A stretch of 64,000 bases of DNA from Acidiferrobacterales bacterium (lineage in GTDB: Bacteria; Pseudomonadota; Gammaproteobacteria; Arenicellales; Poriferihabitantaceae), in assembly GCA_019633985.1 (NCBI GenBank), contig JAHQWE010000070.1, positions 1 through 64,000 of the forward strand, given 5' to 3'. The notes below the pieces were generated by a model. The model made no database searches, was not told the origin of the DNA, and worked only from the letters and a program-made list of their open reading frames with translations. A program made the translations under genes and the position numbers. The first letter of the stretch is position 1. The number at the start of each line of letters is the position of its first letter. Positions 41,241 through 45,125 of the stretch are shown here, piece by piece.

Positions 41241-42080
41241 ATGAAATTTCAAGGTACAAAGCAATATGTCGCAACCAGCGATTTGCAGATGGCGGTCAAT
41301 GCAGCCGTCACGCTTCAACGACCACTTCTGATCAAGGGGGAGCCGGGTACGGGAAAAACCATGCTCGCGGAGCAGGTGGCCCAGGCTCTAGAGATGCCGC
41401 TTATTCAATGGCATATCAAATCAACTACCAAGGCGCAGCAAGGGTTGTATGAATACGATGCCGTTTCCCGGCTCCGTGATTCACAGCTCGGTAATAATGT
41501 TGATGATATCGGTCGATATATCTCCAGGGGGAAACTCTGGCAGGCGTTTGAAGCAAAATCTCCAGCCGTATTGTTGATCGATGAAATCGACAAAGCGGAT
41601 ATCGAGTTTCCTAATGATCTCTTACTTGAGCTCGATAAAATGGAGTTTCATGTATATGAAACCGGAGAAACGGTGCGAGCAACACATCGCCCGGTCATCA
41701 TTATTACCAGCAACAATGAAAAAGAGCTTCCGGATGCGTTTCTGCGACGGTGTTTTTTTCACTTTATCCAGTTTCCTGATAAGGAGACCATGACAGAAAT
41801 CATTCGCGTGCATTATCCGGATATCAAAGAAAAACTCGTGCAGGAGGCGCTAGAGGTGTTTTTTGATATTCGCGATATCCCTGGTTTGAAAAAGAGGCCA
41901 TCAACCAGCGAACTGATTGACTGGTTGAAGCTGCTGATGTCTGATGATATTCCTGATACCGTTCTACAGCAGCGAGATAAGTCAAAAGCAATTCCACCGT
42001 TATATGGTGCACTACTTAAAAATGAACAGGACGTGCAATTGCTGGAAAGGCTGGCGTTTATGCATCGGCGTCAAAGCTAA
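41241..42080 (+). CDS. MoxR-family AAA+ ATPase
   Basis: 279 residues. Walker A G-E-P-G-T-G-K-T at about 31-38, Walker B L-L-I-D-E-I-D-K-A, sensor 1 I-T-S-N-N-E, and arginine-rich R-R-C-F-F-H-F. MoxR ATPases work with a von Willebrand A partner to assemble or activate another protein. The partner is encoded 21 bp downstream (CoxE-like). The target is unknown here; no CO dehydrogenase, methanol dehydrogenase or nitric oxide reductase genes are adjacent. Confidence 0.92.
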   Translation: MKFQGTKQYVATSDLQMAVNAAVTLQRPLLIKGEPGTGKTMLAEQVAQALEMPLIQWHIKSTTKAQQGLYEYDAVSRLRDSQLGNNVDDIGRYISRGKLWQAFEAKSPAVLLIDEIDKADIEFPNDLLLELDKMEFHVYETGETVRATHRPVIIITSNNEKELPDAFLRRCFFHFIQFPDKETMTEIIRVHYPDIKEKLVQEALEVFFDIRDIPGLKKRPSTSELIDWLKLLMSDDIPDTVLQQRDKSKAIPPLYGALLKNEQDVQLLERLAFMHRRQS

Positions 42081-42101
42081 CCCACTACCTCTCCGTCGAT
42101 T

Positions 42102-43277
42102 GTGTTAGTTAATCTGTTCTACTGTTTAAGAGAGTACGGCGTACCTGTGTCGATACGTGAACATGTCGACTTGCTCTCGGCGTTGGATGCAGGTCTAGCC
42201 TACGCGGATCAGGAGCAGTTTTATTTCTTGGCGCGAACAGCGCTTGTAAAAGATGAAAAACATTTTGATAAGTTTGACCGGGCGATGACGGCGTTTTGGT
42301 CTGGGCTAGATTCCCTGGAAGGACTAGTTGAAGCAAGCATCCCTGACGAATGGCTACGTAGTGAGTTTTTAAAACAACTCTCAGAGGAAGAGAAAGCAAA
42401 AATTGATAGCCTTGGTGGACTGGATGAGCTGATCAAGAAATTCAAAGAACGCCTGGAAGAACAACAAAAACGGCATGCCGGTGGCAACAAATGGATTGGT
42501 ACCGGCGGTACATCTCCTTTTAGTCATGGTGGATATCATCCCTCCGGAATTCGCATTGGTGGGGAAGGGCAGCACAATCGCGCTGTTAAAGTATGGGAGA
42601 AACGAGAATTTCGAAATCTGGATGATTCCATTGAACTCGGCACCCGTAATTTAAAAATAGCGCTGCGGAGATTGCGAAAGTTTGCGAGGGAGGGCGCCGC
42701 AGATCAATTTGATCTGGACGATACCATTCACTCTACCGCTCGCAATGCCGGGTTGTTAGATATCAAGATGGTCCCGGAAAAACACAATGCGGTGAAGGTG
42801 TTGTTGTTTTTCGACGTTGGGGGTTCCATGAATCGTCACGTGAAAATTTGCGAAGAGCTATTTTCCGCAGCACGCACTGAGTTTAAGCATCTGGAGTTTT
42901 TTTACTTCCACAACTGTTTGTACGAGTCGGTATGGAAGGACAATCGCCGACGCTATAGTGAAGGTATTTCTACTCTCGATGTCATGAATCGATATGGCAG
43001 CGACTATAAGGTTATTTTTGTTGGAGATGCCTCTATGTCGCCATGGGAAATTGTTTATCCCGGTGGGAGTGTCGAACATAATAACGCGGAAGCGGGGCAA
43101 ACCTGGCTGGAACGCATCGGACAAAGCTACCATAAAATTGCATGGATCAACCCTGTTCCTGAAAAGCAGTGGGACTACACGCAGTCAATTGGTTTGATTC
43201 AGTCGATCGTCGACGACAAGATGTTTCCTTTAACTGTGAAAGGTCTTGAACAAGCAATGACACACCTTGCTCGCTAA
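42102..43277 (+). CDS. CoxE-like VWA-domain protein
   Basis: 391 residues from a GTG start. N-terminal helical region of about 190 residues with a charged coiled part, then a VWA domain: MIDAS D-V-G-G-S (D-x-G-x-S) near residue 233, and later D-A-S and T-W-L-E-R-I segments. CoxE/VWA proteins are the fixed partners of MoxR ATPases in metal-enzyme maturation. The gap to the MoxR gene is 21 bp, so they form an operon. Confidence 0.87.
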   Translation: MLVNLFYCLREYGVPVSIREHVDLLSALDAGLAYADQEQFYFLARTALVKDEKHFDKFDRAMTAFWSGLDSLEGLVEASIPDEWLRSEFLKQLSEEEKAKIDSLGGLDELIKKFKERLEEQQKRHAGGNKWIGTGGTSPFSHGGYHPSGIRIGGEGQHNRAVKVWEKREFRNLDDSIELGTRNLKIALRRLRKFAREGAADQFDLDDTIHSTARNAGLLDIKMVPEKHNAVKVLLFFDVGGSMNRHVKICEELFSAARTEFKHLEFFYFHNCLYESVWKDNRRRYSEGISTLDVMNRYGSDYKVIFVGDASMSPWEIVYPGGSVEHNNAEAGQTWLERIGQSYHKIAWINPVPEKQWDYTQSIGLIQSIVDDKMFPLTVKGLEQAMTHLAR

Positions 43278-43553: not shown

Positions 43554-44855
43554 ATGACTGTAGAAGAACTCCAGGCTATGATCGAGGCCGCCAATAAGAT
43601 AAATCTTGAGATTTATTATTATTGGGCGACCGCGATCATGATCCTGATCCACGCCGGTTTTTTGATGTACGAAATGGGCGCATCCCGCGTCAAACACACC
43701 CTAGCGTCCGGTACGAAAAACGTACTCGCCTTCGCCTTTATGATTCCCACTTTCTATATGTTCGGATGGTGGATATATCTGGCGATGACAAACGGATTTG
43801 TTCCTAATTTTGAAGCAGGTGCAGGCGGTGTTCCATGGGGTGAGTCAATGGGGCCTAATTTGCAGGACAACGCAACCGGCGTATTTGTCGGGGCATTCAC
43901 TTTATTTGCATGTACTACAGCATCAATAATGTCAGGCGCCGTTATTGAACGTATTCGTATGGCGGCATTCATCATTCTTGCAGTTGTGCTGGGATCGGTT
44001 GTTTGGGTGTTGTCTGCGTCCTGGGGCTGGCACTATGCTGGTTGGATGGTCACGAAGTGGGGCTACCATGACTTCGGCGCATCTGGTGTGGTTCACATGA
44101 TCTCAGGCTTCTTCGCATTGGGTGTATTGATCAACCTTGGACCAAGAATTGGCAAATACAACGCGGATGGTTCAGCGAATGCAATCAAAGGCCATAGTTT
44201 GCCAATGACCGTCGCGGGTCTTATGCTGATTGTGACCGGTTTCTTCGGTTTCCTTGGCGCTTGCGTTATTTTTCCAGGAACTGCTGTCAGTTTTGCCGCG
44301 GATCAGTGGACGAATATATATGGCGGACCCACTACGCTATCGGCAATTTGTTTTAACACCTTGATGGCAGTTGCAGGCGGTATTATTGGTTGCTATGTCA
44401 AAACACGGGATCCTTTCTGGATGATGTCCGGTGCCTTGTGTGGTGTGATTTCAGCAGCAGCCGGATTAGATATGTGGAATCCAAGTCTTGCCTTTGCTGT
44501 GGCATTTGCGGGCGGTCTGCTTGGTCCTGTAGCTGCAAGCTTTATCGAGAAGATGGGTATCGATGATGCGGTTGGTGCGGTTGCCGTACACGGTGTTTGC
44601 GGTGTCTGGGGCTTGTTAGCGGTGGGCATCTTCATGGGAGGTTATCCTTCCCCAGGTGAGGGAATTCCAGTGATTAGCTTTTATGGCCAGTTTATGGGCA
44701 TGCTGGTTATGTTGGCTTTGGGATTCATCCCGGGATACGTCCTTTCCCTACTTTTCAAAATGATGGGAATACTGCGTGCCAGCGATGGTGTTCAGCGTGC
44801 TGGTATGGATGTTGAAGTGGTTGGTACCGCTTATCCTGAAGAAGTTCGATCTTGA
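43554..44855 (+). CDS. amt: Ammonium transporter, Amt family
   Basis: 433 residues, eleven TM segments. The twin-His pore residues are present in G-V-V-H-M-I-S-G and A-V-H-G-V-C-G-V-W-G, and D in H-D-F-G-A-S-G. Passes NH4+/NH3 across the inner membrane. The cytosolic tail R-A-G-M-D-V-E-V-V-G resembles the E-x-G-L-D region that meets PII proteins, but no glnK gene is adjacent. AGGAGGAGG 4 bp before the ATG is a very strong ribosome site. A 55-residue membrane protein follows 19 bp later. Confidence 0.94.
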   Translation: MTVEELQAMIEAANKINLEIYYYWATAIMILIHAGFLMYEMGASRVKHTLASGTKNVLAFAFMIPTFYMFGWWIYLAMTNGFVPNFEAGAGGVPWGESMGPNLQDNATGVFVGAFTLFACTTASIMSGAVIERIRMAAFIILAVVLGSVVWVLSASWGWHYAGWMVTKWGYHDFGASGVVHMISGFFALGVLINLGPRIGKYNADGSANAIKGHSLPMTVAGLMLIVTGFFGFLGACVIFPGTAVSFAADQWTNIYGGPTTLSAICFNTLMAVAGGIIGCYVKTRDPFWMMSGALCGVISAAAGLDMWNPSLAFAVAFAGGLLGPVAASFIEKMGIDDAVGAVAVHGVCGVWGLLAVGIFMGGYPSPGEGIPVISFYGQFMGMLVMLALGFIPGYVLSLLFKMMGILRASDGVQRAGMDVEVVGTAYPEEVRS

Positions 44856-44874
44856 TTATTACGAGGAATATGAA

Positions 44875-45042
44875 ATGTTAAATTCAAGTCCAATTGATAG
44901 CTGGGAAGGCGCTGGCGCTTTCTTTAACTACGCCGGCAGCGGCGGTGCTGTATTCTGGTTCTGGGTAATGGTAGTACTTTGTTTAGTACCTATCGTAGTT
45001 GCCTTGAAAGCAGAGAGCGCTGCTGAATCGGAGCATGACTAA
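44875..45042 (+). CDS. 55-residue single-TM protein encoded behind amt
   Basis: ATG at 44875 preceded by GAGGA with about 7-base spacing. Residues 1-23 are polar (W-E-G-A-G-A-F-F-N-Y-A-G-S-G-G), residues 24-43 form one TM helix (F-W-F-W-V-M-V-V-L-C-L-V-P-I-V-V-A-L), and the tail is K-A-E-S-A-A-E-S-E-H-D. Not a family I know. It lies 19 bp after amt, before a shared terminator, so it is co-transcribed. A small regulatory or assembly partner of the Amt trimer is the simplest guess. Confidence 0.75.
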   Translation: MLNSSPIDSWEGAGAFFNYAGSGGAVFWFWVMVVLCLVPIVVALKAESAAESEHD

Positions 45043-45096
45043 CTTTAAGTCATAACAAAAAAGACAAAACGGCGCTTCGGCGCTGTGGAACTTGCA

Positions 45097-45125
45097 GGGG
45101 AGAGCTTTCGAGCTCTCCCCTTTTT
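45097..45125 (+). terminator. Rho-independent terminator of the amt operon
   Basis: GGGGAGAGCT, loop TTCG, AGCTCTCCCC followed by T5, 54 bp after the 55-residue ORF. Very stable stem with a UUCG-type tetraloop. A smaller GGCGCTTCGGCGC hairpin lies just upstream. Confidence 0.93.

Follow-up and report, generated by a model that had tools for sequence, protein, structure and literature searches.

A small single-helix membrane protein genetically paired with a divergent subfamily of Amt transporters

Amt proteins are textbook homotrimers that have been studied for three decades, and one-TM small subunits dedicated to one large membrane complex, such as KdpF (with KdpA) and CydX (with cytochrome bd), are also well known. 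AcrZ (with AcrB) and MgtS and MgtU work in a comparable way, each having one TM helix within 30–60 residues and serving one large membrane complex (PMC10710835). For E. coli AmtB, no small subunit was found in database records or open-licence reviews, and an Amt accessory subunit goes unmentioned in the review PMC10433425. The S1 site of AmtB consists of F107, W148 and S219, and enhanced methylammonium uptake has been reported for the S219A variant (PMC10433425). A small protein that does act on an Amt is sP36 of Methanosarcina mazei (61 aa), which resides in the cytoplasm until a nitrogen upshift sends it to the membrane, and which works together with GlnK1 (PMC10714827). Other Amts, Sd-Amt1 (8qj3, 8qj4, 8qpf) and Ks-Amt5 (6eu6), carry fused signalling domains, which in Ks-Amt5 is a histidine kinase (PMC5764959). 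The genes listed for marine TMA/DMA/MMA clusters include amt (PMC5520151, PMC7574528); in the available portions of both papers it is described as an ammonium transporter, with no word of a small gene beside it.

Here we consider a 64,000-nucleotide stretch of DNA (the window) in which a divergent amt gene is followed by a gene for a 55-residue membrane protein. A description of this small gene, or of any Amt to which a small subunit is obligatory, was not found in the open-licence literature; an account in a subscription journal is possible. Small TM subunits and Amts are already known kinds, and what is new here is the small-protein family and a branch of Amts with an apparently obligate small subunit.

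The amt operon and its small gene

The amt gene (43554..44855, + strand) encodes a divergent Amt-family transporter of 433 aa, which scores 204.6 bits against PF00909 (gathering cut-off 23.2) and is ~26% identical to E. coli AmtB. Behind it, a 19-nt spacer (44856..44874, + strand; GAGGAATATGAAATG) holds an AGGA-type ribosome-binding site, GAGGA, and leads to the small gene (44875..45042, + strand), whose translation is MLNSSPIDSWEGAGAFFNYAGSGGAVFWFWVMVVLCLVPIVVALKAESAAESEHD (55 aa). The position of the start codon is kept in relatives; a longer GTG-start ORF (44776–45042) exists in the same frame, and the conservation among relatives begins only at the ATG at 44875. Both genes share an intrinsic terminator (45096..45121, + strand) with an 11-bp stem, a 4-nt loop and a T-run, and a second hairpin of 7 bp lies upstream of it. 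The folding z of the 3′ region is −4.28. The original prediction of a 55-residue ORF with its own ribosome site 19 bp behind amt, and of a shared terminator, is borne out by these features. Upstream of amt, at 41241–43277 (+ strand), there are an AAA+ ATPase-like gene and a second ORF that may encode a VWA-domain partner, with no evident link to amt.

The small ORF is a real coding gene, and purifying selection acts on its relatives: of eight pairs compared, seven gave a dN/dS of ~0.05–0.17 and one was saturated at synonymous sites, and codon differences between the window gene and its relatives are concentrated at third positions. The notion that the ORF is an incidental neighbour of amt, non-functional or in an unrelated frame, could appeal to its small size only; given these dN/dS values, the spread of conserved relatives across two phyla or more, and the exclusive pairing described below, which already refutes chance, its probability is next to negligible.

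Pairing of the small gene with one Amt subfamily

When 109 genomes of the same order were searched with the single sequence of the small protein, 29 held a homologue at E ≤ 0.01 (the window itself at 8e-34, the best relative at 2e-26). When 84,980 genomes were scanned with the pattern SP[IF]x[SAT]W[ED]GA[GAE], without any amt information, 80 loci were kept, and in 79 of these amt lay on the same strand directly upstream, which confirms a conserved pairing; the one exception (L080) starts at a contig end. The hosts include Gammaproteobacteria (Amphritea, Neptuniibacter, Oceanospirillaceae, Cocleimonas and sponge symbionts), Alphaproteobacteria (Salipiger, Methyloceanibacter, Dongia, Jiella) and Bacillota (Aquibacillus, Alteribacillus, Gracilibacillus), so that conservation is far from limited to one species. 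A record labelled Oceanobacillus sp. (L134/G856) holds a proteobacterial-looking partnered Amt and a tdm-like gene; as this assembly is broken into 509 contigs or more, contamination or mislabelling is likely there.

The window protein belongs to type A of the small proteins. Type B is likewise a small single-TM protein, with the pattern MSTTxxxxWAxxLAEIGxIYPFVGxE...WHxxQxRxE, and since the two types align by profile (hhalign probability 94.5%, E 8e-8) we treat them as one family. Neither type had a match over cut-off in Pfam, NCBIfam, PADLOC or PDB chain sequences, the best weak matches covering the TM segment only (DUF4381 at 20 bits against a cut-off of 27.2; CcmD in PDB at E 0.047), and the original statement that no family is known for the protein therefore holds. 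A Pfam search found no P-II domain in it, and a search of phage records found no relatives.

To sample from the side of the transporter, the window Amt was compared with 274 gammaproteobacterial and 240 alphaproteobacterial genomes and the 109 genomes of the order, several also being searched with PF00909. The DNA behind each fetched Amt was then inspected for a small gene, which played no part in selection. Amts were divided by identity to the window Amt into clade A (≥52%, including the window Amt), clade B (38–52%) and classical AmtB-like proteins (~25–33%). A type A gene lay behind 46 of 46 clade A Amts, six of them from genomes originally picked for holding the small gene, a type B gene behind 56 of 56 clade B Amts, and a small gene behind none of 61 classical Amts; the effective numbers are smaller, since only identical near-duplicates were removed. 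The small gene is thus paired one-to-one with an Amt subfamily, and the idea of a small subunit of Amt, taken as a genetic partnership, is strongly supported. One classical Amt with an apparent small gene (L197) was a false positive of the regular expression, which had matched an unrelated soluble protein. The gene that seemed missing at L037, L151 and L171 is there and had escaped the expression, and at L250, another supposed exception, it is present with a GTG start.

The same division is seen within single genomes. The host of the window has four Amts, and the small gene lies behind the two divergent ones only (contig C53, the window, and C71), while of its classical Amts one adjoins a PII gene (C88) and the other (C75) has neither a PII nor a small gene; the division between divergent and classical Amts recurs in five other genomes. 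The PII gene adjoining the classical amt (G000:C88:15913–16230, L141) has one TAG in the matched stretch, from decay, an assembly error or a stop at its very end. Amts of the partnered kind are also found in 11 plasmid records, and at all nine places opened the next gene after amt is annotated as a ‘hypothetical protein’.

Several loci hold more than one Amt. At the start of L064, L065, L067 and L070, ~3 kb upstream and in the same orientation, there is a second Amt that shares ~42–44% identity with the window Amt; genes of the clade A-like and clade B-like kinds can therefore be near neighbours. In Amphritea and relatives (L112–L118 and L123, at ~8.2–9.5 kb), a classical Amt (~31%) follows the partnered one at a distance of a few kb, and a motif search behind these classical Amts detected no small gene. 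At L078/L021 the Amt frame is split by a frameshift, probably an assembly error of the MAG, with an intact small gene downstream.

In a FastTree tree, clade A (support 89), clade B (100) and the two together (100) each form one side of a branch. The partnered Amts reach the cut-off of no NCBIfam Amt model, the window Amt falling below those of TIGR00836, TIGR03644 and PRK10666. Assignment of the window Amt or clade B to the marine subtype TIGR03644 was rejected, the cut-off being 514 against 189.7 bits for the window Amt and 135–201 bits for four others from clades A and B.

Because every examined member of one large Amt subfamily is followed by the small gene, and no ordinary Amt is, a built-in subunit is probable. 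The reading we favour, with somewhat better than even confidence, is that the small protein is a dedicated and constitutive subunit of a distinct Amt subfamily for the uptake of methylated amines and/or ammonium.

Orientation of the small protein and its possible roles

The small protein has three parts. Its N-terminal segment (residues 1–24; 44875..44946, + strand) carries the motif SSPIxxWEGAxAFFxxA; in alignments W10 is invariant, and S5, P6, I7, G12, A13 and A15 are each conserved in at least 90% of sequences (alignment A2). A TM helix follows (residues 25–44; 44947..45006, + strand; hydropathy 2.8), and the protein ends in a short charged tail (residues 45–55; 45007..45039, + strand) in which E47 is conserved in an (H/A)E position after the helix. 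This agrees with the original description of a polar N-terminus with aromatic residues, one TM helix and a net acidic tail. Across types A and B, the mean count of K/R is 0.14–0.17 before the helix against 2.4–3.0 after it; K/R lie on the C side in 90–97% of members and no member of either type is reversed. In five clade A relatives a signal-peptide-like extension ending in AQA or similar precedes the motif. In one genus (L022–L028, L284–L288) a signal-peptide-like extension is ~28 residues long, ends in AQA or VQA and precedes the conserved motif. From the K/R bias and the extensions we infer an N-out/C-in topology, with SPIxxWEGA in the periplasm and the tail, which across the family is ~10–40 residues long and poorly conserved, in the cytoplasm.

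This orientation bears on the suggestion that the small protein stands in for local PII control. The claim that no glnK is nearby was correct, as a search of the 64-kb window revealed nothing like glnK, and in 12.5-kb stretches around 20 Amts per tier a neighbouring glnK was present at 0/20 clade A, 0/20 clade B and 17/20 classical Amts. Such an absence (0/40 partnered Amts) is compatible with replacement, and sP36 is a precedent for a small protein inhibiting an Amt (AmtB1 of M. mazei; PMC10714827), and so the small protein might gate the Amt according to nitrogen status. However, PII acts on the cytoplasmic side and the conserved motif is predicted to be periplasmic, with a short and variable tail, and the small gene is fixed in the operon without separate control. 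Moreover, the host retains PII genes on contigs other than that of the window. The comparison with sP36 is also imperfect: it is soluble, reaching the membrane from the cytoplasm and acting together with GlnK1, whereas the present family is predicted to consist of operon-fixed TM proteins with no glnK nearby, the two being set apart by description and not by sequence. PII substitution is therefore not supported, and with the conserved part on what would be the wrong side and the gene fixed in its operon, we consider it the weakest serious option and improbable. A different physiology, that of methylated-amine clusters, would account for the missing glnK no less well than a substitute regulator.

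The partnered Amts can themselves be compared with AmtB. Like AmtB, the partner is a genuine Amt: the 136 partnered Amts keep F107, W148, D160, H168, F215 and H318 (AmtB numbering), and hence the twin-His and Phe-gate. Unlike AmtB, all of them have F103A and S219C, Q104F, Y140W and W212F are fixed, and G163A is found in nearly all; they also differ from AmtB in lacking glnK and having an obligate small TM gene. The serine of the S1 site is thus a cysteine, and its aromatics F107 and W148 are kept. Since the twin-His and Phe-gate are retained while F103, S219, W212 and Y140 are exchanged, the conducting core is preserved and the outer vestibule remodelled.

These conducting residues also weigh on the proposal that the Amt serves as a receptor for ammonium or methylammonium, from which the small protein relays a signal. 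Among solved structures, the window Amt is nearest to the receptors Sd-Amt1 and Ks-Amt5, by sequence (110 and 108 bits) and by fold (Foldseek ranks 1–4), and yet the partnered Amts retain the twin-His and Phe-gate and have no conserved output domain or adjoining kinase. In the FastTree tree the receptors, which carry fused signalling domains, do not group with the partnered Amts, and an origin from sensor Amts was rejected on this ground, if only weakly because the receptors sit on long branches. Taken with the other evidence, a sensor complex is very improbable.

As a subunit, the small protein would be produced from the amt operon and inserted with its SPIxxWEGA/aromatic N-terminus in the periplasm and its short charged tail in the cytoplasm. 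It most probably binds the Amt trimer within the membrane, and its role is likely to be constitutive and not regulatory. Its N-terminal segment may cover or complete the outer vestibule, where the F103 and S219 of AmtB are lost, a mechanism that we put forward tentatively and consider rather doubtful. AcrZ, KdpF, CydX, MgtS and MgtU would be the nearest functional likenesses, but they have other partners and no family match, and the conserved tryptophan/aromatic motif, predicted to be periplasmic, sets the present proteins apart; we do not claim membership of any of these families.

An AF2 run on a read-through fusion of Amt and small protein (L083; 25-residue linker, 22 paired rows), a monomer fusion that cannot show a site in the trimer, gave a pTM of 0.86, with the Amt well folded and the small protein's TM helix, equivalent to that of the window protein, at pLDDT >90. 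The conserved N-terminus was unplaced (pLDDT <50 up to residue 479); since the small protein alone scored no worse there (pLDDT 55–60), the Amt context adds no confidence at this end. In mean-field DCA on 100 pairs, an underpowered set (Neff ~37), the top inter-protein pairs mostly involve TM segments (e.g. A315/A319 with V31) and score below the strongest intra-Amt pairs, and they do not enter our reading.

The main rival to a transport subunit is an assembly or stability factor, which would serve the insertion, trimerisation or FtsH protection of the Amt and take no part in transport, like MgtS and MgtU with MgtA and MgtB. A dedicated chaperone would be just as consistent with strict pairing, and small TM proteins in such roles are known (PMC10710835). 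The highest conservation, however, is in the segment predicted to be periplasmic and not in the TM helix, and the partnered Amts have fixed vestibule changes in common, two features that suggest a place in the transport path; we therefore hold a stability factor to be unlikely.

Methylated amines and the meaning of the pairing

In relatives of the window pair, the amt and small genes are linked to methylated-amine genes. With identity thresholds of ≥55% for tmm, ≥44% for near-full-length tdm, ≥65% for dmmC, ≥54% for gmaS and ≥50% for mgsC, such genes were nearby in 10/20 clade A, 12/20 clade B and 1/20 classical stretches of the 12.5-kb survey, in which kinship was ignored. Half of the clade A loci have none within ~6 kb, and the window locus has none within 64 kb. 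Of the 80 loci kept from the pattern scan, 33 hold a tdm-like gene and 23 hold tmm. On plasmids of Thioclava, Ruegeria and Ponticoccus, the amt–small pair lies between dmm and gmaS/mgs genes, and Rhodobacterales amts of clades A and B lie in clusters of the published TMA/DMA/MMA kind and may correspond to the amt of those papers. A GmaS-like gene (≥57% identity) was present in 24/24 genomes of the order with a partnered Amt, including the host, compared with 1/6 without one, the six being hand-picked and kinship ignored.

On this genomic context, a methylated amine as the substrate of the partnered Amt has close to an even chance. The complex of Amt and small protein would then be a (methyl)ammonium porter with tuned capture, feeding gamma-glutamylmethylamide synthetase (GmaS) and the methylated-amine pathway. 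The fuller proposal is that this large and widespread branch of Amts consists of two-component porters for methylammonium or other methylated amines, with a rebuilt outer vestibule, an obligate small subunit facing the periplasm and no PII control, and that they serve as importers for marine methylated-amine pathways, which is a reasonable possibility that falls short of probable.

If the small protein is a true subunit, structures and assays of such Amts alone would represent an incomplete complex. Natural variation, in the form of the fixed F103A and S219C exchanges, also offers a way to test the long-debated S1 site. Methylated amines are described as climate-active and as an important marine nitrogen source (PMC5520151, PMC7948447), and, if our reading is right, many marine genes annotated as ammonium transporters may import methylated amines instead.
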